Assembly: GCA_009379825.1 (NCBI GenBank)
Contig: WHTA01000011.1
Location: 1-64,000, forward strand
From: Streptosporangiales bacterium
Lineage (GTDB): Bacteria > Actinomycetota > Actinomycetes > Streptosporangiales > WHST01
Length of the DNA stretch: 64,000 nucleotides
Direction of reading: 5' to 3'
Both the position numbers and the translations under genes were made by a program. The first letter of the stretch is position 1; each line of letters opens with the position of its first letter. Under the pieces are notes generated by a model. The model was not told the origin of the DNA. It saw only the letters and a list, made by a program, of their open reading frames with translations, and did no database searches. This document shows, one piece after another, positions 7,678 to 27,909 of the stretch.

Positions 7678-7848
7678 CACGACCGCCATTGCTCGCCGCC
7701 GGCGGCACGTGCAGGACCCGCGAACCTCGAAAGGTAGCTGGCGGCCCTAACTTGGCACCGGGTTCGACATGCGGGCGCATCGCTGTCGGTACCTGTTGGC
7801 AGGGTAGGCCGACGAATCGTCCGCCCAGTGTGAGGAGGCGCCTGCCTG

Positions 7849-8461: not shown

Positions 8462-8533
8462 CTTGACGGGCCGCGACCGAACCGGGCGGCCACCGATTGC
8501 TGCGGCCCGTGTCGCAAGGCGATAAGGAGAGAG

Positions 8534-9053: not shown

Positions 9054-9255
9054 GCGGCGAACGTCCGCACTACCTCCCCGATGAGGTCGTCGAGGCAGAA
9101 ACCACAACCTGCATGTGGGCCCCTCGTGGGCCAAACGGTTCGGGTGGCCCGCATAGTGACGGCGTTTGCGCAGGTGAAGGCCGGGTGGCGTTCGAAAACA
9201 GCTCGGCCTTCGGAGCCGATGAAGTGGCGGCTGCCGCGGCGAGCCGAGGGGGTCG

Positions 9256-10100: not shown

Positions 10101-12032
10101 TCAGCTGGCTGCGCGTTCGATAATGATGTCGCCGCGTCGCGTGCCGGCATCGACCGTCAGCTCGTTGTCGGGCTTCCCCTGCGGCGAAACCGAGTTGCGC
10201 ACCGATCCGTTCTTGCTGTTGGCATCCACCCGGACAGCGGTGCCCTCGCTGATGCCGATCTCGATGTTGCCCGAGAGGTTCGACAGTTCCGCGTGGCCGC
10301 GGGTCAGCCGTTGCCGTCCGCGCGGTCGATGTCGAAGCCGCCGTTGCTGTTGGTGAGATCGAGGTCGGCTGAGGCGGTGCCGATCCGGACGTGCCCGGAC
10401 GAGCCCAGGAGCTTGACGTTGCCGTCGACCTCGCTGATCCGCACTGCGGCCGACCCGCCCTCGATGTCGGCGCGCCCGGCGACGACCTCGCCGGCTGCGA
10501 GATTCGCCCGCAGCGCGTCGATGCGATCGAGCTGGATCCGGCCCGACGCCATGTTCAGCTCGCACGGGCCGAGCGGGCCGTCGGCGTGCACACTCGAGTA
10601 CGCCACGCCTGCGACCAGGCTGGAGCCGGCGGGCAGGTCGATCGTGATGGCCACCGATCCGCTCTTATCGCCCGCGACGTTCGTTTCGACAGTGAGCTGA
10701 CCACCGAAGAAGCCGACCGTGGTCTTCTCGGCCACCTTTACGCGCAGCAGCTGGACGGCCGGCGACGACTCGACCTCGCCGGGGCTGGCGTCCCCCGCCG
10801 GGACGGCCAGCGGCGCAACCTGCCAGAGCGCCTCACCGGTGATGCCGAGCGGCTCCCTGCTGGTCGCCAGGATCCGCAGCCGCCGGCACTCGCCTAGAAC
10901 TCGGTGGGCGAACGCCGCGGCCGACTCGATCACGTGCTCACAGTTGTCCAGGATCAGCAGCACCTCCCGCTCGCGGATCGCAGCAATGAGCCGGTCCGTC
11001 AGCTCCGCGTGCGGTGTCGCACCGAGCATCCCGCAGGCCGAGTGCGGTGAGCGTCGCCTGCGCCACGTCCCCGTCGGCGCCGATGGCGGCAAGCTTCACC
11101 AGCCAGACCCCGTCCGGCAGATCGCCGAGCAGCGTGCGCGCGGTTTCTGTGGCCAGCCTGGTCTTTCCCGAGCCGCCCGGCCCGATCAAGGTGGTGAGCC
11201 GATGTTCGGCGCTGAGCTTGCCGACCGCAGCGACATCGGCCTCCTTGCCGACGAAGCTGGTCAGCTCGGCACGGAGGTTGGTCTTCCGGTTCTCGTCCGG
11301 TGGCCCCAACTCGCCCTTCAGCAGCGCGACGTGTAGGGCGGACAGCTCAGGTGACGGGTCGGCGCCGAGTGCGTCGGCCAGGGCTTCCCTCGTGCGCTGG
11401 TAGGTGAGCAGCGCCTCCGAGTCCCGACCGGCCGCGACGAGGGCCCGCATCAGCGCGGCGGCCAGCCGTTCCCGCAACGGATGCGCGGCCACCATGTCGG
11501 TCAGTTCCGCGATGAACTCGACACCGTGGCCGAGGCTGACTTCGGCCTCGTACCGATCTTCCCTGGCGGTCAGGCGGAGCCCCTCGAGTCGGCTCACCGC
11601 AGCGTCGAACGCTGCACTGTCCTGGAGTCCGACATCCTGCATGGCCGCACCACGCCATATTGCGAGAGCCTCGCGCAGCAGCCGTACCCGCCGGGGACCC
11701 TCCTCATGGCGAGCCTGACCGATGAGGCGTTCGAAGCGCACGGCGTCGACCGTGTCGGGGTCGACCAACAACCGATAGCCGTCTGGCTGTCCTTCGACCA
11801 GCCCGTCCGGTAGCACCTTTCGCAGCCGGGAGGCCAAGCGTTGCAAGGCATTCACCGCGTCGTCGGGCGGGAGCTCACCCCAGATCCAGTCGATCAGCGC
11901 CGCCTTGGAGACCACGCGCCCTGGTTGCTGGGCGAGCGCGGTCAACAAGCCGCGCAGCCGGGCGCCCGGCACGTCGGCGAGGAGGCCGTCGTCGGTGCGA
12001 ACCTGAAGAGGTCCCAGCATCCCGATCTGCAC
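10101..12032 (-). pseudogene. SARP/AfsR-type regulator fused to a DUF4097 C-terminus, two frameshifts
   Basis: From GTG 12032 the frame starts MQIGMLGPLQVRTDDG, the classic OmpR-like winged-helix start of SARP regulators. It continues through the bacterial transcriptional activator domain (to about residue 250) and into an NB-ARC ATPase with Walker A LIGPGGSGKTRLATETA. Near 11045 the frame shifts. The next frame carries LLILDNCEHV (Walker B) and LATSREPLG, and at about 10735 passes directly into a different protein: VKVAEKTTVGFFGGQLTVET, the inside of a DUF4097 beta-repeat protein. A TGA at 10304-10306 interrupts this, but the DUF4097 sequence resumes in another frame (LTRGHAELSNLSGNIEIGIS) and ends at 10101. 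The ATPase end, TPR region and DUF4097 start are missing. This is best read as a deletion fusion that later decayed. Confidence 0.7.
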
Positions 12033-12143
12033 CGAGCGATTTTCCCACAACGAGCCGTTTTCGCCTCTGGTAGCTTGTGCGTCAGTGCCGACGTCAAAGT
12101 CCGTGGCGGGGGTGGCCTGTCGACGTGTGCGAGGGAAGCTCAG

Positions 12144-14331: not shown

Positions 14332-16319
14332 TCACTCGACGTCCACGGTGGCGGTGTCGTTCAGGGCGTCTGCCACGGTGGTATCGGAGCCGTACTGGTC
14401 CGCGTGGACACCCAGCTCGGTGAGCTTCTCGAGGAGTACGTGCGGGTTCCCGTCGGCGTCGTTCAGAAGCGCGGCGTGCACATCCGCAGCCGTGTCGGCA
14501 CGCATGATCGCCAGGTCGACCTCGTCGACCGACTGGGACAGCCCGCCGGTCAGGGAGCTCTGGTCTTCCTCGGTGGTCTGCTGCACCAGCTCGTCGACCT
14601 CCTCCTCGGTGACGTCACCTTCGCGTAGGGCGTGCTTCTGCAGCGTCTGTTCCCTGATCGCGTGCAGCTCGTCGTCGCTGAACGTGACGCGGACGTCGGC
14701 GTCGTCGGCCACGTCGACGTCGGAGTCGCCGGTCCGGTGACCGAGGTAGGTCTCCATCAGCTCGCCGTCGGCGCCGTACTCCGCGGCGTAGTCGGTCGTG
14801 GCGTCGCCGGACGTGTGGGTGGTCGCGATGCTCGTGTGCCCGTCGGCATGGACGGTGCTCGAGGCGTCGAGCGAGCCGCTCGACGACAGCAACGTCGGCT
14901 CCCACGGGCCCAGGTCCACACCGAGCTCCGTGTTCGCCGAGGCGTCGACCACGTTCGTGACGGTCTCGTTCGACGTGCCGGGCGTCCCGCCCGGTGGCAG
15001 TACGCCGGTGGCGAGGAACCGTTCGTACGCGACCCGGCCTTCCGGTGTGGTGATGTCGAGGTCGATCGTACGCAGCTTGCCGTCCTCGTACGACTTGCTG
15101 ATGTCGAGCTCGCCCTTGAGGTTGTCGACGCCGACGCTGCCGCCGGCTGGGTGCTCGACCAGCTCGGAGTCGCCGACGCGAACCGTGGTGCCGTCGACCC
15201 GTTCGATCCCCGTACTGACCGTCTCGGTGTGCGTGTACCCGACGTTGGCACGCAGCACGCCGCGGTACTCGCCGCTCGCGTCGAACCCCGCGTAGAAGCT
15301 GCCGTCGAGCACCACCGTCGTGCGGCGGGGCTGCCGCCGTCGACGAACAGGTCCGCCGACGAAGGATCGGTGACGACCCGGTACTCCAGTCGCTTCCCCG
15401 CGAACGCCGCGAGGCTCCCGCCGAGCACGCCCTTCTTCGTCTCCCCGGCCACCTCCAGCGTGCCGCTGACCTCCAGGGTGGCGGTCAGCGACACCTTGCG
15501 GTCGCCGTCGTCCTCGATCTCCTCGCTGCTGCGCTCGTCGGTGAACGTGACCGAGAGCCAGTCAGGCAACCGGCCGCCGAGCAGCGAGGAGAACTGACCG
15601 ATGAGGCTCATGCTCTCCCAGTTGTCGACGGCCGGGCCTATCGCCCTGCCGTCCCGTGGATGCCCGGTGTCGAGGATCGGTCTCGGCCTGGCGGTCTCCC
15701 ACCACGCACGACCGACGACCGTGGTCAACAGCTCCAGCTGCACCACGGCGAGCTCGTCACGGTTGGCACCCGCCACCACCCCGTCCGCCCAGTCGGTGAA
15801 GGTGACCGGCCCCTGCGACACCCGGTCGAGCACCTGCCGTGCCCAGGTGTCAGCCGTCTCCGCGTGTCCGAGGGCGCCTACGAGCTGCGTGGTGAGACGT
15901 GCCGCGGCGAGGCTGGCCGGTTCCTCGTCCCCCTCCCGCGGATAGTCGACGTCTTCCCTCAGCGTCACCGTGCCGTCGCTGGCCACGTACAGGTTCAGCT
16001 CCTCGGCCTGTCCGACCAGCTGCCTGGCCAGGCTCTGAGCGGACCTGAGGCCGGCCTGCAGGCCGAGCACGGCGACCTTCGCGGTCGTGGTGCGGGTGAC
16101 GCCGACGTCCAGCGCCGTCCGGTTGAGCCGCACGGTGGTGAGCGCGGCTGGCTGGCCGGTGCCGCTCCATGCCACGCCGGCGTCAAGCGGGTTGAGCACC
16201 TCGCCGACGAGCCGCTCCCGCGCCCGGTCGAACGAGCGGCTGGTGCGGCCGAACGCGGTCACCACGCCAGCCAGTGCGGCCACGTTCATCCGGGTCAACG
16301 TCTCGACGGTGATCGCCAT
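14332..16319 (-). pseudogene. Large WXG-type secreted-protein-like gene, one frameshift
   Basis: From ATG 16319 the frame begins with a helical domain that includes AWSGTG (a W-x-G turn at residues 51-53), as in WXG/LXG-like substrates of type VII secretion. A mixed domain follows, with SVTFTDERSSEEIEDDGDRK and beta-rich VSLTATLEVSGTLEVAGETK. At about 15320 the frame is lost: the sequence has four C where five would restore reading. The second frame continues with VLDGSFYAGFDASGEYRGVL and a very acidic C-terminus (EEEVDELVQQTTEEDQSS) to TGA at 14332. Repaired, the protein would have about 660 residues. No known toxin motif is seen. It lies 7 bases downstream of a small helical gene in the same direction, the usual arrangement of such substrate pairs. 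Confidence 0.6.
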
Positions 16320-17324: not shown

Positions 17325-17699
17325 TCAGAGGTCGTACGCGGGCGGGTGCTTCGGTTGGTAGAGCAGCAGCTGTCCGGCACCGGGCACGGCCAGCATGATG
17401 ACCAGGCCGTACCCCTCGTCGCGCACCTCGCCGTCGAAGACCGCACCCTTCGCGGTGAGCTCGGCGACCGTCACCTCGATGTCGTCGCACATCAACGACA
17501 CCTGGTGGTGTTGCTCGGCCGGCCCGACCGTGGTGGACGTCGGGTGCACCCCGAGCTCGAACGGCCCGGTGCGGAAGATCAGCCAGCCGTCGCCCGCGTC
17601 GACGTGCGGCCAGCCGAGTACGTCGCGGAAGAAGGCTCGCGCTGCCTCCGGGTCGTCGGCGTACACCAGGGAGTGCACAGCGGTAATCATGCCTTCCAC
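17325..17699 (-). CDS. VOC (glyoxalase/bleomycin-resistance fold) protein
   Basis: A 124-residue protein with two beta-alpha-beta-beta-beta modules: SLVYADDPEAARAFFRDVLG at the start, HHQVSLMCDDIEVTVAELTA in the middle, GLVIMLAVPGAGQLLLYQPK near the end. This is the vicinal-oxygen-chelate fold of glyoxalases, dioxygenases and antibiotic-binding proteins. The metal ligands fit (His9, Glu near residue 49, late positions less clear). An internal Met three residues in is an alternative start. It is convergent with the Pr6Pr gene. Confidence 0.8.
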   Translation of the reverse strand: MEGMITAVHSLVYADDPEAARAFFRDVLGWPHVDAGDGWLIFRTGPFELGVHPTSTTVGPAEQHHQVSLMCDDIEVTVAELTAKGAVFDGEVRDEGYGLVIMLAVPGAGQLLLYQPKHPPAYDL

Positions 17700-17717: not shown

Positions 17718-18422
17718 TCAGCGGGATCCCTTGGTGCCCTTCGTGTTGCGGCGGCGTTCCCGGCCGAGACCGTCGATCAGCTGGTCGAGGCCCCAGGAGT
17801 ACTGCGACTCCAGCGCGCCCTGCGGCAGGTACTCCGCCGCGGCGTGCAGCTGCGGGTACTGTTCCGGCGGCAGGTCCGCCAGGGTGTGCCGCCACCAGGT
17901 CTCGTGCTCGGCGTACGGGTGGGTCCTGGTGCGTTCGACCTCGTACTCGGCGAAGCCGAGGGTGTAGATCTGCGCCGCACGGTACGCGCGCACTGCACCC
18001 TCCGTGCTCCAGCCGCCTGACGTCAGCCTGGTGAGCAGCCACTCGACCATGTCGGCCATGTCCGGGCTCCACAGCCGCCGCTTGATCAGCAGCTGCACGA
18101 GCGTCGGGTACTCGAGCATGCGCTGCCGCAGCGCCACGCAGTACCGGCGCAGCGCCTCGTCCCACGACGGGTGACCGGAACGGTCCACCGGCAGGTCGCT
18201 GATCACCCGGGACGTGACCTGCGAGAGCAGGTCCTCGCGGTTCTGGACGTAGCCGTACAACGTCATCACGCCGCAGTCGAGCTCGGCGGCCAGCCGCGGC
18301 ATGCTCAGCGCGTCGATGCCGTCGCGTTGGATCAACGTGATGGCGGCGTCGACCACCTGCTCGGCCGAGAGCGACTTCCTCGGCCTGCGCTTCCGCGGCG
18401 GCTCCGCGCGAGCTCGTGCCAT
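17718..18422 (-). CDS. TetR-family regulator, last gene of the ABC/CoA-transferase operon
   Basis: A 234-residue TetR protein. It has an N-terminal HTH (SLSAEQVVDAAITLIQRDGI, then MPRLAAELDCGVMTLYGYV) and a helical ligand domain resembling the TetR_C class with a WSPDMADMVEWLL helix. The basic start (MARARAEPPRKRRPRKSL) is from ATG 18422. It follows the MmgE/PrpD gene by 14 bases, a gap holding a TTACCGTAA half-site identical to one arm of the palindrome before the operon's first gene. It probably represses the operon and itself in response to the imported compound or its CoA derivative. This regulation is inferred. Confidence 0.85.
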   Translation of the reverse strand: MARARAEPPRKRRPRKSLSAEQVVDAAITLIQRDGIDALSMPRLAAELDCGVMTLYGYVQNREDLLSQVTSRVISDLPVDRSGHPSWDEALRRYCVALRQRMLEYPTLVQLLIKRRLWSPDMADMVEWLLTRLTSGGWSTEGAVRAYRAAQIYTLGFAEYEVERTRTHPYAEHETWWRHTLADLPPEQYPQLHAAAEYLPQGALESQYSWGLDQLIDGLGRERRRNTKGTKGSR

Positions 18423-18427
18423 GGCCC

Positions 18428-18436
18428 TTACCGTAA
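18428..18436. promoter_or_regulatory. Half-site TTACCGTAA before the tetR gene
   Basis: The nine bases TTACCGTAA are identical to the left arm of the palindrome at 24541-24561. They sit in the 14-base gap between the MmgE/PrpD stop and the tetR start. A second arm is not visible at the expected distance, so this may be a weak or accidental site. Confidence 0.4.
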
Positions 18437-19834
18437 CTACCGGCCGCCGCCGAACGCGACGAACATCGCCGCCACCACGTCGGCCGCCGCGGATCCGACG
18501 TCGCCGGCCAGCAGGTCGTCCAGCTGCTTCACCGCGTCGTCGGTGAGCGGGCCGGTGACGTTGGCCGCGAACTTCGCCCGCAGCTCGTCCTCGCTGAGCG
18601 GCCGCTGTGGCGCCCCGCGCACGGTCTCGACGCTGGCACGCAGCTGCCGGCCGGAGCGGTCGGTGTACGTGCCGGTCGCGATGAGCTGCTCGGGGAACCG
18701 GCCGCTCGCCCAGTCGTCGGCCTCGACGTGTACGCGGTCGGCGAGCGCGAGCAGCGTCTCGTCGGCGAGCAGGTCGGGTGGGAAGTCGGAGAGCGCGAGG
18801 CCGAGACCCGCACCGCCACGCAGCGCGAGCGCGACGGTCATCGGCCCGGAGAAGCGCGCGTGGTACGGCGTATCGGGCCGCACCTTCGCAGCGCGCGGCT
18901 CGGCGATGGTCGGCAGCACCTGTCGCGCCACGCCGACCACGAGCCGGTCCAGCTCCTCGGCCCGCGCGCCCTGGTCGCGCAGCTGCAGCGCGAGCTCGAT
19001 CGGCGCGTGCGTGAACGCGTTCGTCGGGTACGGCTTCGTCGACACGGAAAGCACCTGCCAGCCGTCGGCGTACGGGTCGCCGAGCGGACGAGCGGCGAGC
19101 TCCGGCGCGCCGAACGCGTTGAGCATCCCGAACCGTCCCTCGAACACCGTCGGCGGCGCGGTGAGCCCGCACTGCGCGGCGTACGCGGCACGGATGCCGG
19201 AGGCTGCCGCCCAGCCCGCGTGGAACGGCTTGACGGTGCCGCCGGTGCGGTTCGCCTCGAGCACCCCGCTGGCGAGGCTCGCGGCAATGCCGACGGCGTG
19301 CCCGAGCTCGTCGGCGGAGAGGTCGATGAGCACGCCGGCAGTCACCGCGGCGCCGAGCGTGGTGCACACCGGCGTCGGGTGGAAGCCGCGCTCGAACAGC
19401 ATCGAGTTGCTGCCGTCCGCGGTCAGCAACGCTGTGCCGACGCGCAGGCTGGTCTCCTGCCCTGCCGCGATCGCCGCGGCCAGGCGCGCACCGTCGCCGG
19501 TAGCGCGGGCTGCGGCGAGAGCGGTGGGAACGATGACGCAGCTGGGGTGCACGAGCGTGGGCAGCTGCACGTCATCGTAGTCGTGTGCGTGCGCTGCAGT
19601 GCCGAGTAACAGCGCGACGTCTTCCGCGCGCGCCGGCAGCTCGTCGCCGGTGCCCGCGGTGAGCCGCAACGCACTGCGACTGGCCGCCTCGCCCGCGCCG
19701 GCGACGATGCAACCTACGGTGTCGCGCACCGAGTCACGGACGAACCGCGCGACATCTTCCGGCAGTGGCGTCTGCGCCGCGCGGTGCACCCATGCCGCCT
19801 GCTCGCTCGACTGCGTGCTCTGTGTTCCGCTCAT
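18437..19834 (-). CDS. MmgE/PrpD-family protein
   Basis: A 465-residue member of the MmgE/PrpD family, which includes 2-methylcitrate dehydratase and cis-aconitate decarboxylase. Conserved segments are visible: AHAHDYDDVQLPTLVHPSCV (His/Asp-rich N-terminal site), GFHPTPVCTTLGAA, and TVKPFHAGWAAASGIRAAYA. The second domain contains ISTKPYPTNAFTHAPIE-type sequence (SVSTKPYPTNAFTHAPIELA). Members dehydrate or decarboxylate tricarboxylic-type acids. The true substrate is unknown. It overlaps the upstream cyclase by 4 bases and is in the ABC/CoA-transferase operon. Confidence 0.87.
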   Translation of the reverse strand: MSGTQSTQSSEQAAWVHRAAQTPLPEDVARFVRDSVRDTVGCIVAGAGEAASRSALRLTAGTGDELPARAEDVALLLGTAAHAHDYDDVQLPTLVHPSCVIVPTALAAARATGDGARLAAAIAAGQETSLRVGTALLTADGSNSMLFERGFHPTPVCTTLGAAVTAGVLIDLSADELGHAVGIAASLASGVLEANRTGGTVKPFHAGWAAASGIRAAYAAQCGLTAPPTVFEGRFGMLNAFGAPELAARPLGDPYADGWQVLSVSTKPYPTNAFTHAPIELALQLRDQGARAEELDRLVVGVARQVLPTIAEPRAAKVRPDTPYHARFSGPMTVALALRGGAGLGLALSDFPPDLLADETLLALADRVHVEADDWASGRFPEQLIATGTYTDRSGRQLRASVETVRGAPQRPLSEDELRAKFAANVTGPLTDDAVKQLDDLLAGDVGSAAADVVAAMFVAFGGGR

Positions 19835-20628
19835 GCGCCCACCACCGCGAGCGGACGCGCCGGTGAGCCCGTGCCCCCGACGATCTTCAACGGGCTACAG
19901 ACGAACAGGAACTCCGTCACGTCCGCGGCCGCGATGCCCTCAAGGTCGAGCACCTCGATGATGTTCACCCCCGCGTCGAAGAGCAGACGTTGGTGCACCG
20001 GCAGCTGACCGTGTCCGGTGCTCGCGTGGATCTGTTCGAACGCGATGGTGTCGCCGCCGGCCGCGCGTATCCCGCGGTCGAGCAGCCAGTCCGCACCGGT
20101 GGTGTCGATGCCGGGTACGCCCGTGCTGCGGCCGACGAACGCTTCCGCGTCGTGCCACAGCTGTGGCCAGCCGGTGCGGATCAACGCCACGTCGCCCGGC
20201 CGCAGCTCGACGTCGGCCGCCTTCTCCAGGTCGTCCGCCGTGACGCCGTAGCCGGCGTCCAGCCGCTCCATCCCAAGAGCGCGCGGTACGTCGAAAAGCA
20301 CGCCGCGGGCGAGGATCGGTGGCACGGTGTCGATGCCGTGTACGGTGAACCGCCCGCCCACGCTCGCCTCGTGGGCGTCGACGCCGCCGTGCAGCTTGCC
20401 GTGCAAGGCCACGTGGCACAGCGCGTCGACGTGGGTGCCGACGTGACCGCCGGTGGAGATCAGCTCGTTCGCACCGGACAGCCCACTCGGGCGTACCGCG
20501 TCACCGTGCCTGCGGATGAGCGCCATCCGGAAACCCGGATGGTTCGGCGAACACGGTGTGTTGGCGTCGAGCGGCTGGCCCAGGTCGTAGACCGTGGCGC
20601 CGTTCTCGATCGCGTCTAGCAGCAGCAT
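19831..20628 (-). CDS. Cyclase-family metal-dependent hydrolase (KynB-like)
   Basis: A 265-residue protein of the cyclase family (PF04199), with the metal-binding signature HVGTHVDALCH and a late HASTGHGQLPVHQRLLFDAG segment. Relatives hydrolyse N-formylkynurenine, cyclic imides or lactone-like compounds using Zn or Mn. The start is ATG 20628, and the end overlaps the MmgE/PrpD start by ATGA. In this operon it may open a ring or amide of the imported compound; that is inference. Confidence 0.87.
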   Translation of the reverse strand: MLLLDAIENGATVYDLGQPLDANTPCSPNHPGFRMALIRRHGDAVRPSGLSGANELISTGGHVGTHVDALCHVALHGKLHGGVDAHEASVGGRFTVHGIDTVPPILARGVLFDVPRALGMERLDAGYGVTADDLEKAADVELRPGDVALIRTGWPQLWHDAEAFVGRSTGVPGIDTTGADWLLDRGIRAAGGDTIAFEQIHASTGHGQLPVHQRLLFDAGVNIIEVLDLEGIAAADVTEFLFVCSPLKIVGGTGSPARPLAVVGA

Positions 20629-20641
20629 CGGTGTCCCCTCA

Positions 20642-21841
20642 TCAGATGGCGCCTCGCTCCCGGAGCGCCGCGATGCGCTCCCCCGTCACTCCTGCTTCCC
20701 GCAGGACCTCGTCGGTGTGCGCACCGAGCGGCGGCCCGGTCCAGCGGATCGCGCCAGGGGTGCCGGACAACCGGAACAACAGGCCCTGCATCGACACCTG
20801 GCCGAGCTCGTCGTCGGGCAGCCGGACGACGCTGCCGCGGTGCTGCACATGTGGATCCGCGACGACGTCCGCCGCACTGTAGATCGGCGCTACCGCCACC
20901 TGCGCCTCAGTGAACGCTGCAACCACGTCGTCGGCGTCGCGCGCGGCGATCCACGACCCGACGGCCTCGTCGAGCTCGTCGGCGTGCTGCGCGCGACCGC
21001 CGCCGGTCGAGAACCACGGCTGTTCCACCAACTCCGGGCGACCGACCAGCCGCACCACGCGTTCCGCGACGTTCTGCGCGCTCGTAGAGATCGCCAGCCA
21101 CCTGCCGTCGCGGGTGCGGTACGTGTTGCGCGGCGCGTTGTTGACGCTGCGGTTCCCTGTCCGTTCCTGCACCACCCCGAGCTGGTCGAAGTCGATGACC
21201 TGCGACCCGAGCACGGTGAGGATCGGCTCGTAGAGCGCCAGGTCGATGACCTGGCCCTGCCCGGTGCGCTCCCGCGCCCACAGCGCGGTCATGACCGCGT
21301 AGGCACCGGTGATCGCGGCGATCCCGTCCGCCAGGCCGAACGGCGGCAACGTCGGCGGGCCGTCCGGCTCACCGGTGATGTGTGCGAACCCGCTCATCGA
21401 CTCGGCGAGGGTGCCGAAGCCGGGGCGTGAGCTGTACGGGCCGTCCTGCCCGAAACCGGTCGTACGCAACAGCACGAGCCGCGGGTTCACCCCGCGGAGG
21501 ACGTCCCAGCCCAAGCCCCAGCGTTCCAGCGTGCCGGGGCGGAAGTTCTCGATCACCACGTCGGCACTACGCACCAGGGCGAGGAAGATGTCGCGGCACT
21601 CTTCGTCGCCGAGGTACAAGGTGGCGCACCGCTTCCCGCGCGACAGCATCTTGTTCCACAGCGCGACGCCGTCCTTGCTGCGGCCGTGCCCGCGCGCCGG
21701 ATCGCCGCGCGGATGCTCGATCTTCGTCACCTCGGCGCCCTGGTCGGCAAGCAGCGTGGCGGCCAGCGGCCCGGCGAACAAGGTGGCGATGTCGAGCACC
21801 TTGACGCCGGTGAGTGCCGCCTGCTCCCCCTCCTCGGTCAC
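20642..21841 (-). CDS. CaiB/BaiF-family CoA-transferase
   Basis: A 399-residue class III CoA-transferase. It has VKVLDIATLFAGPLAATLLA at the start, IENFRPGTLERWGLGWDVLR, GFGQDGPYSSRPGF, and the region around LADGIAAITGAYAV where the catalytic Asp of the family lies. Such enzymes move CoA between organic acids without free energy input. The start overlaps the stop of the substrate-binding protein gene by 4 bases. In the operon it probably activates the imported acid as a CoA thioester. Confidence 0.9.
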   Translation of the reverse strand: MTEEGEQAALTGVKVLDIATLFAGPLAATLLADQGAEVTKIEHPRGDPARGHGRSKDGVALWNKMLSRGKRCATLYLGDEECRDIFLALVRSADVVIENFRPGTLERWGLGWDVLRGVNPRLVLLRTTGFGQDGPYSSRPGFGTLAESMSGFAHITGEPDGPPTLPPFGLADGIAAITGAYAVMTALWARERTGQGQVIDLALYEPILTVLGSQVIDFDQLGVVQERTGNRSVNNAPRNTYRTRDGRWLAISTSAQNVAERVVRLVGRPELVEQPWFSTGGGRAQHADELDEAVGSWIAARDADDVVAAFTEAQVAVAPIYSAADVVADPHVQHRGSVVRLPDDELGQVSMQGLLFRLSGTPGAIRWTGPPLGAHTDEVLREAGVTGERIAALRERGAI

Positions 21842-22878
21842 TTCATCACCTGGTCGGTGACCGTGGTCGTGTACGACTCCTTCGAAGGGACCTTCAGCTT
21901 CGGCTCGACCTTCTTCTCGAACCGGTACGCCGCGTCCGCGTCCTCGGCGTCGACGGCGACCGACTTCGGTGTCGCGGACACCACCTGCTCGAACGCCTCC
22001 TCGAACTGCTCGTCGGAGAGCTGCTTGTACTTCTTCCTGACGACCTTCTTCGCCTGCTCCGGGTCACTGTGGATGAGCTCCACGGCCTTGTTCAGCGCAC
22101 GCGAGTAGCACACCAACGCGTCCTTCTTCTTCTCGAGCGCTTCCTTCGACGTGAGCGCGGTGAGCCACAGGATGTCGTCGAACGCAGGTACCGTGCCTTC
22201 GGACAGGTCCAGGGCGACCTTGCCGTCCCCCTTCTCCGCACCGATGATCGACGCCGGCGGCGAGATGACGTAGGCGTCGATGCTGCCCCTGGCGAACGAC
22301 GCGACCATCTCCGACGATCCGCCGGTCGCCACGATCTCGACGTCCTTGTCCGGGTCGAGCCCGTGCTGCAGGAACAGGTAGCGCATGATCCTGTCGGTCG
22401 AGCTGCCCGCCGACGTGATGCCGACCTTCTTGCCGCGCAGCGCCTCGACGACCGCCTCCTCGCTCTCCTCGTCCGGGGCGATGTCGGACTTCATCGTCAG
22501 GCCGTAGAGCAGGCTGTCCATGACGGTGGCGAAGGTCAGCACCGGGCCGCCCTTCTCCCGGGTGGACAGCACCGTCGGATGCGTCGACAGCGTCACGTCG
22601 GCGCTGCCGCCGACGAGCGCCTGGATCGCCTCCGAGCCACCGCCGAGCGCGATCCGGTCGATGGTCAGGCCCTGCTTGGCGAACATCCCCTTCGCGGCCG
22701 CGATCTCGTCCGCGATGTAGAGCATGCTGCCGTCGGTGGCCTGGCTGATCCGCAGCGTCTGTCCCGCGCACGGACCATCGGCGGACGCGGCCTGCTTCGG
22801 CTTCTGACAGGCTGCGCCACTCAGCACCAGCGCCCCGACTGCGACTGCGCACCCCATAGTGCGCGTGAGCTTGTTCAT
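21838..22878 (-). CDS. ABC substrate-binding lipoprotein (NMT1/SsuA-type)
   Basis: A 346-residue periplasmic-type binding protein. ATG 22878 gives a signal peptide with a lipobox-like end (MNKLTRTMGCAVAVGALVLS then GAAC), so the mature protein is probably lipid-anchored. The body shows the NMT1/THI5-like pattern (GMFAKQGLTIDRIALGGGSE, LVGGSADVTLSTHPTVLSTR, GKKVGITSAGSSTDRIM). Relatives bind sulfonates, thiamine precursors, nitrate or aromatic acids. It is the third gene of the importer operon. A longer frame upstream lacks a binding site. Confidence 0.88.
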   Translation of the reverse strand: MNKLTRTMGCAVAVGALVLSGAACQKPKQAASADGPCAGQTLRISQATDGSMLYIADEIAAAKGMFAKQGLTIDRIALGGGSEAIQALVGGSADVTLSTHPTVLSTREKGGPVLTFATVMDSLLYGLTMKSDIAPDEESEEAVVEALRGKKVGITSAGSSTDRIMRYLFLQHGLDPDKDVEIVATGGSSEMVASFARGSIDAYVISPPASIIGAEKGDGKVALDLSEGTVPAFDDILWLTALTSKEALEKKKDALVCYSRALNKAVELIHSDPEQAKKVVRKKYKQLSDEQFEEAFEQVVSATPKSVAVDAEDADAAYRFEKKVEPKLKVPSKESYTTTVTDQVMK

Positions 22879-22891
22879 GACCGACTCACTT

Positions 22892-23731
22892 CTAACGACT
22901 CGAGTAACGCTCTGCACGGGTGACCGCGATGTTGATCACGACCGCGACGACCATCAGCACCACGACGGCGGCGAAGGTGCCCGCGGTGTCGAACGTGTTC
23001 GCCGAACGCTTCAGCAGGTAGCCGAGACCCTCGTTCGACGCGGTGATCTCACTGACGACCGCACCGATGAGGGAGTAAGGAACGGCGAGCCGCAGGCCGG
23101 TGAAGACCCAGCTCGCCGCGGCGGGCACGATGACCTTCACCAACCGGTCCTTGCGGTTGGCGCCCATCAAGGTGACGACGTCCAACAGCTCCTGGTCGAC
23201 GTTCTTCGCGCCGGAGAAGCTGTTGTGGAACACCAGGAAGAAGACCACGACCGCGGTGAGCGCGACCTTCGACTCCAGCCCGATGCCGAACCAGAGGATG
23301 AACAACGGCGCAAGCGCGAGCTTCGGCAGGCTGTTCGCGGCGATGACGAGCGGGTTGAGCACCTCGGCGAGGAACGGCGACCGACCGAGGACGAAGCCGA
23401 CCGTCACGCCCGCGGCACCACCGACGACGAAGCCGAGTGCCATCGCCTGCAACGTCGCCGAGCCGTGCGTCCACAGCGACCCGTCGATGCACCACGTCCA
23501 GAGCTTGGTCAGCACGGCGGACGGGCTGGAGATCCAGAACGGGTCGATCAGCGCGCCCGAGCACAGCTCCCACCCGGCGACGGCCACGGCGACGAGCACG
23601 GCACGTACGACCCACACCCAGCCCATGCGTTTCCTGCGCCGCACCTGCAGCTGTTGTGCGTCCGCCGTCTCCGCGGCCGTGCGCCGCGCGGATGCTTCCT
23701 GATCGGTGGTGTCCATGGCGGTGACACTCAT
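22892..23731 (-). CDS. ABC transporter permease (SsuC/TauC-type)
   Basis: A 279-residue BPD_transp_1 permease with about six membrane segments. The cytoplasmic coupling motif is MGANRKDRLVKVIVPAAASW (EAA-loop form). The N-terminal 35 residues are hydrophilic. The start at ATG 23731 overlaps the ATPase stop (ATGA); ATG 23716 is an in-frame alternative. It pairs with the ATPase upstream and the binding protein downstream. Confidence 0.9.
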   Translation of the reverse strand: MSVTAMDTTDQEASARRTAAETADAQQLQVRRRKRMGWVWVVRAVLVAVAVAGWELCSGALIDPFWISSPSAVLTKLWTWCIDGSLWTHGSATLQAMALGFVVGGAAGVTVGFVLGRSPFLAEVLNPLVIAANSLPKLALAPLFILWFGIGLESKVALTAVVVFFLVFHNSFSGAKNVDQELLDVVTLMGANRKDRLVKVIVPAAASWVFTGLRLAVPYSLIGAVVSEITASNEGLGYLLKRSANTFDTAGTFAAVVVLMVVAVVINIAVTRAERYSSR

Positions 23732-24519
23732 GAAGCGAGCTCGTGTTCGACGTCGTCGGCCAGTGCCGCCCAGAGTTCCTCGAACAGCTCCGCGTACCTC
23801 GACTCGAACCTGATCTTGAACATGTCGCGCGGCCTCGGCAGGTCGATGTCGCGGATCAGCCGGATCCGCCCTGGACGCTTCGACATGACGACCACGCGGT
23901 CGCCGAGCGCGATCGCCTCGCCGATGTCGTGCGTCACGAAAACGACCGTGGAACCCGTACGCTCCCAGATGCGGTGCATCTCGGCCTGGAGTACGGTCTT
24001 CAGCTGCGCGTCGAGCGCGCCGAACGGTTCGTCGGCGAGGATCGCCTCGGGCTCGTAGACGAGCGTCCTGGCGAGAGCGACCCGCTTGCGCATGCCACCG
24101 GACAGCTGCCGGGGATACGCGTCGGCGAAGCTGGTGAGCCCGACCAGGTCGAGCATGGCGTCCACCCGCTCGGCGATCTCGCCTTTGTCCAGACCACGCA
24201 GCTCGAGCGGGAGCGCGACGTTGCGCCGCACCGAACGCCACGGCAACACGTTGTCCTTCTGGGTGATGTAGCCCACCTTGGTGTTCGGCGCGGTGACCGG
24301 CTCGCCGTCGTAGTGGACGGCACCGTCGGACGGCGCCATCAGGCCCGCCGACATGTTCAACAGCGTCGACTTCCCACAACCGCTCGGGCCGACGACACAG
24401 CAGAACTCGCCGCGCGCCACCTCGAGGTCGACGTCCTCGACCGCGGTGAACATCGAGCGGTCGCGCTCGAACCGCTTGGCCACCCGCAGAAGGCTGATCA
24501 GCGTTGATCGCTCGTCCAT
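23728..24519 (-). CDS. ABC transporter ATPase (SsuB/TauB-type), first gene of the operon
   Basis: A 263-residue ATPase with Walker A GPSGCGKST, Q-loop ITQKDNVLPWRSV, signature LSGGMRKRVALAR, Walker B AILADEPFGALD and H-loop FVTHDIGEA. The MLPWR-like Q-loop sequence is typical of the nitrate/sulfonate/taurine branch. ATG 24519 was preferred over GTG 24525 because of the GGAG spacing. A 21-bp palindrome ends 21 bases upstream and is the likely operator of the whole leftward operon. Confidence 0.92.
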   Translation of the reverse strand: MDERSTLISLLRVAKRFERDRSMFTAVEDVDLEVARGEFCCVVGPSGCGKSTLLNMSAGLMAPSDGAVHYDGEPVTAPNTKVGYITQKDNVLPWRSVRRNVALPLELRGLDKGEIAERVDAMLDLVGLTSFADAYPRQLSGGMRKRVALARTLVYEPEAILADEPFGALDAQLKTVLQAEMHRIWERTGSTVVFVTHDIGEAIALGDRVVVMSKRPGRIRLIRDIDLPRPRDMFKIRFESRYAELFEELWAALADDVEHELAS

Positions 24520-24540
24520 GCCCACTCCAGTTGGAGGTAC

Positions 24541-24561
24541 TTACCGTAAGTTATACGGTAA
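24541..24561. promoter_or_regulatory. 21-bp palindrome before the importer operon (likely TetR operator)
   Basis: Perfect 8-bp arms TTACCGTA-N5-TACGGTAA, 22-42 bases upstream of the ATPase ATG. It is AT-rich in a very GC-rich region and has the size of a TetR-type operator. The last gene of the operon encodes a TetR protein and has one copy of the arm in front of it. TACGGTAA also occurs at 26587-26594, before an acyltransferase gene. Confidence 0.7.
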
Positions 24562-24839
24562 GGCCGTCCGCGAAGCAACGTGATCGCTCTCACCGTCCCC
24601 GCCCGGGCAGCCGTCACCACCACAGTCGGCGCGAGCGGATGTTCCTGGCCTGACTCAGCTGGGACATCACGCCATCGGCTTCGAGTCGGCGCCTCGCACC
24701 GCACGCAGCGGGCGCCTGCAGGCGTTCGGCCTGGAGGAACCGATTGCGGATCGGCCGTTGCCCGGCCTGGGTGACTCCTCGGCGCGGACGTAGCCCGAAG
24801 CTACAGTTTGATTGTTCGCAGAACGAGAGGGGGCAGTGC

Positions 24840-25301: not shown

Positions 25302-26381
25302 TCACCGTCGGTCGGCGGCGGACCGCAGCCGGAACAGCCAGTCCAGCCTGGGCTCGGCGAACGGCTGGACGAGCTGGGTGACCGGCCGACTGGAGAACAG
25401 GAACACCAGGCCCACCGCGAGCGCGACGACCAGAGCACTGCCGGCCACCGTGTGCAGCCACGCCGGTTCGTACAGGCCGAACCCGGCCGCGCCCTTCACC
25501 ACGAACCGGTGCAGCAGGTACACGTACATCGTCGCCGCACCGAGACCGGTGAACCAGGTGAAGCGCCGTGGCACGACGGCGAGGAACGCAGTGAGCAGCA
25601 CGAACCCGAGCGCCAACGCGCAGGCGCGATGCCCCAGGCCGGACAACGCCGACACGCCGATCTGCTCGTAGCTCTTGTCGTAGTACAGCCAGACCCTGCC
25701 GCCGTCCTGCGCGAACAGGTACGCACCGGCGAGCGAGAAGAGCAGCGCCGGGATCGCTAGCCCCCTGGCCAGCTTCGTACGCACCAGGTCGAAGTAGCGC
25801 TTCGGCATCATCAGGCCGGCGACGTAGAACGGCAGGAAACCGAGCACCCGACTCGGGTCGAACGAGGACGGCAGCTCGGTGAGGCCGGCAGCCAGCGAGA
25901 TGGCGACCGCCACCGCCACTGCGACCACCGGGTGCAACGCATTCCACATCGGGACGCTCAATCGCCAGAACAGCAACGCGATCAGGAACCACATCGCGAA
26001 CGACGGGTCGAGCGGGCTGATCACGATCTCGGTGCCACTGGTGAAGTCACGCAGGATCTCGTAGCTGAACTCGAAGATCAGATACGGCAGCACGATGCCG
26101 GTGATCAACCGGCGCCCCTGGTGCGGCTTGCCGGTGAAGTTACGGGACAGGTAACCGGAGATCAGGATGAACACCGGCATGTGGAACGCGTAGATGGTGA
26201 CGTAGAGACCCTTGGTCGCCGGCACGTCGCGCAGCGGTTCGATCGCGTGGCCGATCACCACGAGCACGATCGCGAGGAACTTCGCGTTGTCCAGGAACGG
26301 GTCGCGGACGGGCGAGCGGTCGGCTGGCACCGACACCGCCGTCGGCCTGTCGTGCGGGAGCGCGCGCACGTCAGTGGCCAC
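25302..26381 (-). CDS. Membrane acyltransferase (Acyl_transf_3 family), copy 1
   Basis: A 359-residue integral membrane protein with about ten hydrophobic segments. The family motif near the N-terminus is present (LDNAKFLAIVLVVIGHAIEP with the catalytic-type His, then YAFHMPVFILISGYLSRNF). This resembles fucose 4-O-acetylase-like and OafA-like enzymes that acylate cell-surface sugars. The first 30 residues are hydrophilic. It is a close paralogue of the next leftward gene (26607-27698), and the two leader regions are also similar, so the locus arose by duplication. Confidence 0.87.
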   Translation of the reverse strand: MATDVRALPHDRPTAVSVPADRSPVRDPFLDNAKFLAIVLVVIGHAIEPLRDVPATKGLYVTIYAFHMPVFILISGYLSRNFTGKPHQGRRLITGIVLPYLIFEFSYEILRDFTSGTEIVISPLDPSFAMWFLIALLFWRLSVPMWNALHPVVAVAVAVAISLAAGLTELPSSFDPSRVLGFLPFYVAGLMMPKRYFDLVRTKLARGLAIPALLFSLAGAYLFAQDGGRVWLYYDKSYEQIGVSALSGLGHRACALALGFVLLTAFLAVVPRRFTWFTGLGAATMYVYLLHRFVVKGAAGFGLYEPAWLHTVAGSALVVALAVGLVFLFSSRPVTQLVQPFAEPRLDWLFRLRSAADRR

Positions 26382-26606: not shown

Positions 26607-27698
26607 TCAGACCCGCGCGCGGGTGACCTCCGGCTGTCGTGACTGCGACGGGCCGAGCAGCCAGTCCAGCCGGGGCTCCACGAACGGCCGCGCGAGCCGA
26701 ACAACCGGAGGAGAGGACAGCAACAGCGTCACCGCGACAGCGAGGAGCACGACCAGGCCGGTCCCCGCGACGGTGTGCAGCCACGGCGCGTCGTACAGCC
26801 CGACCGATGTGGCGCCCTTCACTACGTACCTGTGCAAGAGATAGACGTACATCGTCGCCGCACCGAGTCCAGTGAACCACATCGACCGCCGCGGCACCAC
26901 CGCCAGGAACGCGGTGAGCAACACGACCCCCAGCGCCAGCGCGGCTGCCCGGTTGCCCATCCCCCAGAACGCACCGAGACCGACCTGCTCGTAGCTCTTG
27001 GCGTAGTAGATCCACAGGCTGCCGTGCTTGGTGAGCTGGTACGCACCGAAGACCGCGCCGAACAGTACCGGCAGCGCCAACGCCCGGACGCCCCTCATTC
27101 GTACGAGCTCGAGGTACCAGTCCGGCAGCACCAGGCCGGCGACGTAGAACGGCAGGAAGCCGAGCACCCGGTACAGGTCCAGCTCGCCGGACAGATCGGT
27201 CAGCGGCACCAGCATCGAGACGACCACGGCCACCCCGACGGCGAGCCCCGGCGGCATCGCCTTCCACAGCGGCACCGTCAGCCGCCAGATCAGCAGCGCG
27301 ACGAGGAACCACATGGCGAAGGACGGGTCGAGCAGGCTGACGGCGACCTCCTGGCCGCGGGCCACGTCACGGAGGAGCTCGTAGCTGATCTCGAACACCA
27401 GGTACGGGATCACCACGCCGTCGAGCAGCCGCCGCGCCTGTCGCCGCGCACCCGTGAAGCCGCGCGAGAGGTAGCCGGCGATCAGGATGAACACCGGCAT
27501 GTGGAACGCGTAGATCGCCATGTACGCGCTGTTCGCGGCTGGCACGTCGCGCAGCGGCTCGATCGCATGCCCCACGACCACCAGCGCGATGGCAAGGAAC
27601 TTCGCGTTGTCGAGTAACGGGTCACGTGCCGGGGGACGCTCGACACCCACCGACGAGGTTGGGCAGCCTTGCGAAACCGTACCCGTGCCCGTGGTCAC
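26607..27698 (-). CDS. Membrane acyltransferase (Acyl_transf_3 family), copy 2
   Basis: A 363-residue paralogue of the 25302-26381 gene with the same topology and motifs (LDNAKFLAIALVVVGHAIEP, YAFHMPVFILIAGYLSRGFT, GLGAATMYVYLLHRYVVKGA). GTG 27698 was chosen since it leaves an N-terminal extension like that of copy 1. A longer frame to 27770 is arginine-rich. Identity between the copies is high along the full length, so both are probably functional and may differ in acceptor sugar. Confidence 0.86.
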   Translation of the reverse strand: MTTGTGTVSQGCPTSSVGVERPPARDPLLDNAKFLAIALVVVGHAIEPLRDVPAANSAYMAIYAFHMPVFILIAGYLSRGFTGARRQARRLLDGVVIPYLVFEISYELLRDVARGQEVAVSLLDPSFAMWFLVALLIWRLTVPLWKAMPPGLAVGVAVVVSMLVPLTDLSGELDLYRVLGFLPFYVAGLVLPDWYLELVRMRGVRALALPVLFGAVFGAYQLTKHGSLWIYYAKSYEQVGLGAFWGMGNRAAALALGVVLLTAFLAVVPRRSMWFTGLGAATMYVYLLHRYVVKGATSVGLYDAPWLHTVAGTGLVVLLAVAVTLLLSSPPVVRLARPFVEPRLDWLLGPSQSRQPEVTRARV

Positions 27699-27909
27699 CC
27701 GATCTCCCGTCCAACTTCGAGGGCACCTGCTCGAGCGAGGCTCGACGCCGAGGAGCAGCGTTCGACACACGAAGAGAGTTCAGGAACAGGCAGAGCGCCC
27801 CGGGATACCGACAACCACATAAGTAAAGGGACGGTAACAGACGTGGGGAGGTCTTTGCAAAAAATTTACTATCAGCTCAGTCGGATTTACCGACTATAAA
27901 ACAGAAAGA

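Follow-up and report, generated by a model that had tools for sequence, protein, structure and literature searches.

A seven-gene actinobacterial operon with importer, CoA-transferase, PF04199 hydrolase and MmgE/PrpD enzyme as a candidate route for a masked C4-dicarboxylate

Gene content of the operon

The DNA analyzed (the window) was a stretch of 64,000 nucleotides from a Streptosporangiales bacterium (GenBank assembly GCA_009379825.1, contig WHTA01000011.1, positions 1 to 64,000 of the forward strand). An operon of seven minus-strand genes at 17718-24519 was studied, encoding an ABC importer, a class III CoA-transferase, a cyclase-family hydrolase (the cyclase), an MmgE/PrpD-family enzyme (PrpD) and a TetR regulator. 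Profile searches with Pfam and NCBIfam returned the families called in a first-pass annotation of this DNA, and its seven leftward genes and their coordinates were retained. Features are given below with protein identities to the related operons of Tamaricihabitans halophyticus (L126), genome G824 (L125) and, for TetR, Nocardia colli (L127) and locus L128.

24541-24561, no strand: predicted TetR operator TTACCGTATAACTTACGGTAA, a 21-bp palindrome 21 bases ahead of the ATPase start codon
23728-24519, minus strand: ABC transporter ATPase, NtrCD/TauB-like, first gene of the operon (PF00005; 80% in L126, 70% in L125)
22892-23731, minus strand: ABC permease, TauC/SsuC-like (PF00528; 73% in L126, 67.5% in L125)
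21838-22878, minus strand: NMT1-type substrate-binding lipoprotein, SBP (PF09084 79.6 bits, PF13379; 54% in L126, 40% in L125)
20642-21841, minus strand: class III CoA-transferase (PF02515 409.6 bits, cut-off 23.3; 80% in L126)
20629-20641, minus strand: gap of 13 bases, with a C-C lyase gene (L126:9169-10014) at the equivalent place in the Tamaricihabitans operon
19831-20628, minus strand: PF04199 metal-dependent hydrolase of the cyclase family (93.4 bits, cut-off 23.1; 78% in L126, 55% in L125)
18437-19834, minus strand: MmgE/PrpD-family enzyme, rare KPxHA subtype (PF03972 and PF19305, 133.9 and 90.1 bits; 68% in L126, 45% in L125)
18427-18436, minus strand: exact operator half-site TTACGGTAAG just ahead of the tetR start, a possible second TetR site
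17718-18422, minus strand: TetR regulator (PF00440 29.5 bits, cut-off 24; PF02909 56.9 bits, cut-off 21; 74% in L126, 53% in L127, 51% in L128)

The PF09084 SBP, the BPD_transp_1 permease and the ATPase lie in one operon and together make up an NMT1-type ABC importer. The junctions had been described as mostly 4-base overlaps; such overlaps were found at three of six (ATPase/permease, SBP/CoA-transferase and cyclase/PrpD), the other three being gaps of 13, 13 and 14 bases, with the permease/SBP junction measured from an SBP start at ATG 22878. A VOC/glyoxalase gene at 17325-17699, 18 bases past tetR, was examined as a possible eighth gene of the operon and dropped because it had no match at 1e-12 in 81 relative loci (L126-L205 and L125).

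Related operons

All seven genes were present in unchanged order in Tamaricihabitans halophyticus (Pseudonocardiaceae; NZ_SLXQ01000001.1), at 54-80% identity and with the same operator. The Tamaricihabitans operon has a C-C lyase gene between the CoA-transferase and cyclase genes, whereas the window operon has none. No description of the Tamaricihabitans operon was found in open-access PMC papers. In G824, which belongs to the same order as the window genome, the genes run CoA-transferase, lyase, ATPase, permease, SBP, cyclase and PrpD, with a GntR gene in place of TetR and 4-base overlaps at 12081-12084, 11233-11236, 10412-10415, 8513-8516 and 7686-7689. Since this order differs from that of the window and Tamaricihabitans, importer and enzymes have been kept together through rearrangement. 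The matching operon and the reordered one bear out the earlier proposal that the genes act as one unit.

The carriers vary, as Nocardia colli has TetR, CoA-transferase, lyase, cyclase and PrpD genes with an MFS carrier after PrpD, and Actinomadura sp. KC06 (L201) carries a cluster of the common form described below, preceded by a distant NMT1-type importer (SBP 26%). Other relatives use LIV-type ABC or MFS systems, and the importer is not obligatory. A second CoA-transferase-lyase pair, with its own TetR gene and the same operator and without cyclase and PrpD, was observed at L128:424-3462; it may be the minimal unit of the regulon.

A common actinobacterial cluster of CoA-transferase, lyase, cyclase and PrpD genes follows the gene order of the window (CoA-transferase mostly 49-72% identical, cyclase mostly 46-63%, PrpD mostly 38-49%). 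Genes for an amidohydrolase, a flavoprotein, a racemase, IclR and an importer of LIV type often accompany it, whereas the window type has TetR and the NMT1 importer instead and lacks the amidohydrolase, flavoprotein and racemase in its operon. Same-genus genome G001 holds a CoA-transferase-cyclase-PrpD set of the common type, with IclR and no lyase between. On plasmid pDND3A of Rhodococcus gordoniae (NZ_CP101468.1 116221-137373, L231) a common-type cluster adjoins an amidase gene. A hydantoinase/oxoprolinase pair also lies nearby, its first subunit scoring best with caprolactamase alpha (579.9 of 1000 bits), as does a row of MaoC, CoA-transferase, PrpD, acyl-CoA dehydrogenase and lyase genes resembling the itaconate/methylsuccinate cluster. 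None of these pDND3A neighbors (amidase, caprolactamase-like proteins, itaconate-type row) reached an equivalog cut-off.

Conservation among actinobacterial genomes

Among 394 genomes of the class, 29 had PrpD matches at E <= 1e-75, and among 396 of the phylum, 25 had cyclase matches at E <= 1e-60, the window genome being counted in both. The loci drawn from these matches (29 and 24, respectively) take in G001 in both lists, omit the window and share four loci; one PrpD-drawn and two cyclase-drawn places at contig ends were left out. PrpD lay directly downstream of the cyclase, within 600 bp on the same strand, in 28/29 PrpD-drawn and 21/24 cyclase-drawn loci, and a CoA-transferase gene lay within 1.7 kb upstream in 23/29 and 19/24. 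The cyclase-PrpD pair thus recurs more often than chance would give. The number of genomes and the regularity of the pair mean that the set may represent a widespread actinobacterial carbon route.

For a third draw the cyclase alignment was used as query against named genomes, some shared with the earlier draws, and the best 80 loci were taken; counts over these loci are lower bounds because contig ends cut many stretches. PrpD followed the cyclase immediately in 71 loci. A CoA-transferase was present anywhere in the stretch in 65 and a C-C lyase in 63, the lyase being immediately upstream of the cyclase in 54. An allantoinase/hydantoinase-like amidohydrolase was found in 39 loci, a TcuA/flavocytochrome-c-like flavoprotein in 41, IclR in 41 and a PF01177 racemase-family protein in 23; binding proteins were of LIV type in 17 and of NMT1 type in two. 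Scattering of the genes among relatives, raised earlier as the finding that would undo the proposed unit, was looked for and did not apply to the CoA-transferase, cyclase and PrpD genes.

Among 345 genomes of the order the SBP turned up in two (E <= 1e-40), and among 394 of the class in one (E <= 1e-45), its own genome being counted each time; these genome sets are incomplete, since Tamaricihabitans was not recognizable among the order-level matches.

TetR and predicted operator

The pattern TTACCGTATAACTTACGGTAA gave a single match in the window and none in 100 shuffles. Near-identical sites were located in the promoter of the Tamaricihabitans operon and between the tetR and CoA-transferase genes of Nocardia colli and L128, and across four genera the palindrome accompanies the TetR-type operon. 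When two mismatches were allowed, it was found at one place per genome in the window genome, Tamaricihabitans, Nocardia colli and L128 (in partly overlapping rows) and was not found in G001 or G002; the reversed pattern, used as control, matched once across six genomes. The operon is predicted to be under TetR control through the palindrome at 24541-24561. The half-site before tetR suggests autoregulation; inspection of the Tamaricihabitans operon by eye showed no counterpart at this position. A sigma-70 scan of 24400-24760 found no promoter. By eye, TTGCTT and TATAAC at a spacing of 17 overlap the operator, and the sixth base breaks the rule of the scan. With its own predicted operator, a palindrome conserved at the promoter, the TetR of the first-pass annotation is supported as a dedicated regulator.

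Hydrolase, CoA-transferase and binding protein

The window hydrolase has the full metal motif H62xxxH66xD68xxxH72, whose residues were invariant in 32 rows. Its AlphaFold2 model (pLDDT 90.8) matched 5ibz best in the PDB, then isatin hydrolases, and kynurenine formamidases were also matched. The window hydrolase shares fold and metal motif with isatin hydrolase, kynurenine formamidase, the MGS0169 esterase and trans-dienelactone hydrolase. The kynurenine formamidase profile KynB (TIGR03035) scored 31.4 bits against a cut-off of 223.05. PF04199 members are described in the excerpted text of PMC5341072 as hydrolyzing formylkynurenine, isatin and esters, with trans-dienelactone hydrolase also a member.

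The CoA-transferase reached no NCBIfam equivalog cut-off, with 242.2 of 750 bits for succinyl-CoA:glutarate CoA-transferase and 224.4 of 700 bits for mesaconate CoA-transferase. It is full-length, and in an alignment with E. coli YfdW the Asp of its FGLADG motif falls on the catalytic Asp of the YfdW motif LGDSNTG. Its solved class III relatives span oxalate, benzylsuccinate, carnitine and racemase-type substrates.

The SBP reached no NCBIfam SBP cut-off (SsuA_fam 85.6 bits, cut-off 163.5). Its AlphaFold2 model, made with three sequences, was poor (pLDDT 55.5). The SBP also matched TAL-effector chains in the PDB, over residues ∼151-235 only and with 0 stretches passing alone; these matches were rejected as compositional.

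MmgE/PrpD enzyme

MmgE/PrpD homologues are mostly uncharacterized (PMC12290011). In the excerpted text of PMC12290011, four reactions of the family are described as characterized, all on substrates with a 1,4-dicarboxylate and with conserved His/Lys carboxylate-binding residues, and the two epimerases of the family (IDS epimerase and methylsuccinate isomerase) as having an extra catalytic Tyr. The window PrpD was compared in an alignment from which 121 of 122 rows were used, one short row being dropped. The window PrpD retains H82, D85, H96, H152, K202 and K267, and each is present in at least 118 of the 121 rows. Where IDS epimerase (2hp0), a good sequence match to the window PrpD (7.7e-24), has its Tyr, all 121 rows have Phe (Phe147). 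The mapping of the Tyr of the P. aeruginosa enzyme was uncertain by one column (147 or 148); the Rhodococcus plasmid PrpD did not help to place this methylsuccinate-isomerase Tyr, as that protein has no Tyr there either. Column 148 is Glu or Asp in 118 rows and Tyr in none. The extra Tyr expected of a two-base epimerase was thus absent from the 121 rows; a second base at column 148 is possible because the P. aeruginosa numbering also fits this mostly Glu/Asp column. The 2-methylcitrate dehydratase PrpD profile (NF042438) scored 29.6 bits against a cut-off of 950. We lean toward a lyase-type reaction (hydration, dehydration or decarboxylation) for the window PrpD.

The window form is distinguished from that of the common cluster by KPxHA and A273 as against KRxHC and H273. 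Residues 202-203 are K-R in 111/121 rows, K-Q in four and K-P in six, and Ala or Gly at 273 was found only in the window, Tamaricihabitans, G824 and Nocardia colli. In a quick maximum-likelihood tree the window and Tamaricihabitans proteins were joined with an SH-aLRT of 99, and these with G824 and Nocardia colli with 98. In the same tree these four and the metagenome-assembled genome L193 lay on one side of a branch with support 96; the tree has long branches, and the program cautions that groupings of this kind could be false. It is possible, and we put it forward only tentatively, that the window, Tamaricihabitans, G824, Nocardia colli and perhaps L193 form a rare separate subtype of an undescribed actinobacterial pathway. 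The KPxHA/A-G273 PrpD would then have a reaction new to the family, such as adding water to a substituted maleate or fumarate freed from an imide, lactam or lactone by the PF04199 hydrolase, feeding the class III CoA-transferase and a C-C lyase, and the common subtype, with its extra Arg203, would act on a related substrate that carries an additional charged group.

The closest PDB sequence to the window PrpD was 7bra (B. subtilis IRG1). Its identity as a cis-aconitate decarboxylase is doubted in the excerpted text of PMC12290011, and its function may therefore be related to that of the window PrpD. Eight MmgE/PrpD matches were observed in the window genome, several adjoining CoA-transferase genes, so the family is expanded there.

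C-C lyase

The Tamaricihabitans lyase gene starts within the CoA-transferase stop (9169-9172) and runs up to the cyclase gene, whereas the CoA-transferase-cyclase interval of the window is 13 bases only. A representative lyase of the common clusters (L069) scored best with RipC/Ccl of itaconate degradation, at 201.9 bits under a cut-off of 375, and also matched malyl-CoA lyase 5ugr. The window genome (G000) holds five distant lyase homologues, the best at 41% in another cluster on contig 4. The lyase step may be supplied in trans; none of four homologues placed with FastTree grouped with the lyases of G824, Tamaricihabitans and Nocardia colli, and the fifth (C114, partial) was left off the tree. 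The first-pass annotation had seen one complete route in the operon and had not foreseen a lyase. That claim is not upheld: the window route is incomplete, because the operon has no gene for the lyase, the final enzyme of the route in most relatives, including the Tamaricihabitans operon.

A second cluster was observed on contig 4 of the window genome (85500-104500, L222), with a cyclase-like end (by eye) and genes for a CN_hydrolase, an NMT1 binding protein, a dehydratase-like protein, a CitE-like lyase, a class III CoA-transferase and a PEP-mutase/ICL-like protein. This suggests a parallel route in which another hydratase replaces PrpD.

Proposed pathway and alternatives

We read the operon as catabolic and induced by its substrate, which would be a substituted C4-dicarboxylate in masked form (closed into a ring, or as an amide, ester or lactone); this reading has about an even chance. 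Gene content, order and conservation, the recurring palindrome and the catalytic motifs are observed, whereas the substrate class, the reaction order, TetR binding and induction are inferred. The reading is supported by the protein families and motifs, the sister operons, the clustering in most of the 80 loci, the RipC/Ccl-like lyase, the 1,4-dicarboxylate of the known PrpD-family substrates with the carboxylate-binding residues retained in the window PrpD, the known reactions of PF04199 members, the amidohydrolase and flavoprotein of relatives and the pDND3A neighbors. TetR would occupy the 21-bp operator until released by the substrate or a product, and the NMT1-type importer would take the compound up. 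As the window type has no amidohydrolase, flavoprotein or racemase in the operon and no close amidohydrolase homologue in the genome, the importer presumably delivers the substrate of the hydrolase directly. The PF04199 metal hydrolase would open the ring, amide or ester to give a free diacid, and PrpD would add or remove water or CO2, or otherwise rearrange C2/C3 of the 1,4-dicarboxylate. The CoA-transferase would then move CoA from succinyl-CoA or another donor to the PrpD product, and a CitE/RipC-like lyase would cleave the 3-hydroxyacyl-CoA by a retro-Claisen reaction, yielding a 2-oxo acid together with acetyl- or propionyl-CoA as the acyl-CoA. In the window genome the lyase would come from outside the operon, or the route would stop at the CoA ester. 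By simple chemistry, a cyclic imide, lactam, ureide or lactone would pass through a half-amide or diacid, an unsaturated or hydroxylated diacid and a CoA ester to an acyl-CoA and a 2-oxo acid.

The order given earlier (ring or amide opening, CoA activation, then dehydration or decarboxylation) is plausible in outline, with PrpD probably to be moved before CoA activation. This placement is preferred because the characterized PrpD-family enzymes use free diacids and the one tested isomerase was inactive with CoA esters (PMC12290011, excerpted text). As in the first-pass annotation, which did not recognize the combination as a described pathway, no description was found in searches of open-access PMC papers. 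With its own importer and predicted operator the operon is a self-contained test case that could reveal its substrate, its inducer and the reaction of PrpD at once.

Several observations weigh against the masked-dicarboxylate reading. The window operon lacks the lyase of the relatives, and the best lyase homologue of the window genome grouped with its same-genus counterpart in the FastTree tree. The window genome has no close homologue of the amidohydrolase (best 33%), and the context of the common form may therefore not carry over to the window type. Several active-site residues of the window PrpD are not those of the common form, and the window enzyme may therefore use another substrate. Six of the 80 cyclase loci (L129, L133, L135, L163, L168 and L173) had no PrpD match within the stretch.

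An itaconate/methylsuccinate-type pathway proper, in which PrpD would be an isomerase or hydratase and the substrate an unmasked branched C5 diacid or the lactone of one (itaconate, citraconate, methylsuccinate or paraconate), is rather unlikely. The itaconate/methylsuccinate cluster (Ict, Ich, Ccl, Msi, Mcd), in which CoA-transferase, citramalyl-CoA lyase and MmgE/PrpD co-occur (PMC12290011, excerpted text), has the CoA-transferase, MmgE/PrpD and, presumably, the C4-dicarboxylate skeleton in common with the window operon, and the C-C lyase only with the relatives of the window. The RipC_Ccl profile is also the best match of the L069 lyase, although its cut-off was not reached. The window operon holds neither Ich, a MaoC-type hydratase, nor the Ccl lyase nor Mcd or any other acyl-CoA dehydrogenase, and adds the PF04199 hydrolase, ABC importer and TetR. 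Its PrpD is without the Tyr, which was absent from all 121 rows at either candidate column, and a plain diacid would leave the hydrolase, and the amidohydrolase of the relatives, without a role. The operon is predicted to work like the known CoA-transferase/C-C-lyase diacid pathways and, by the features tested, to lie outside the itaconate cluster.

It is unlikely that PrpD is an epimerase or isomerase of a substituted succinate, with no hydration, and that the operon merely sets the stereochemistry ahead of CoA activation. Isomerizations are two of the four characterized PrpD-family reactions (PMC12290011, excerpted text), the match to IDS epimerase is good, and the Glu/Asp of column 148 could serve as a second base. 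The extra Tyr of the epimerases described in that text is, however, replaced by Phe at the IDS epimerase column in every row.

Aromatic or fatty-acid type catabolism, with the CoA-transferase acting on a monocarboxylate and PrpD as a promiscuous bystander, is very unlikely. The range of substrates of the solved class III relatives would allow it, but PrpD stands immediately after the cyclase in 71 of the 80 loci, and no ring dioxygenase, acyl-CoA ligase or beta-oxidation enzyme is among the seven genes.

NMT1 SBPs include binders of vitamin precursors, sulfonates and nitrate, and the SBP weakly matched the formylaminopyrimidine-binding 3ix1 (7.1e-6); an importer for such an unrelated nutrient (a thiamine or riboflavin precursor, sulfonate or nitrate), merely co-transcribed with the enzymes, nevertheless has little chance of being correct, as the SBP reached none of the NCBIfam SBP cut-offs and the importer stays with the same enzymes in three genomes and two gene orders, an association that accidental co-transcription would hardly have kept.

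Neighboring genes

On the minus strand at 14332-16319, the open reading frames 14332-15315 and 14757-16319 overlap in different frames. Neither gave a Pfam match; by eye they resemble a single long gene with a frameshift at ∼15300. Two similar acyltransferase genes adjoin at 25302-26381 and 26607-27770 (minus strand), the first matched by PF01757 and the second assigned by eye.

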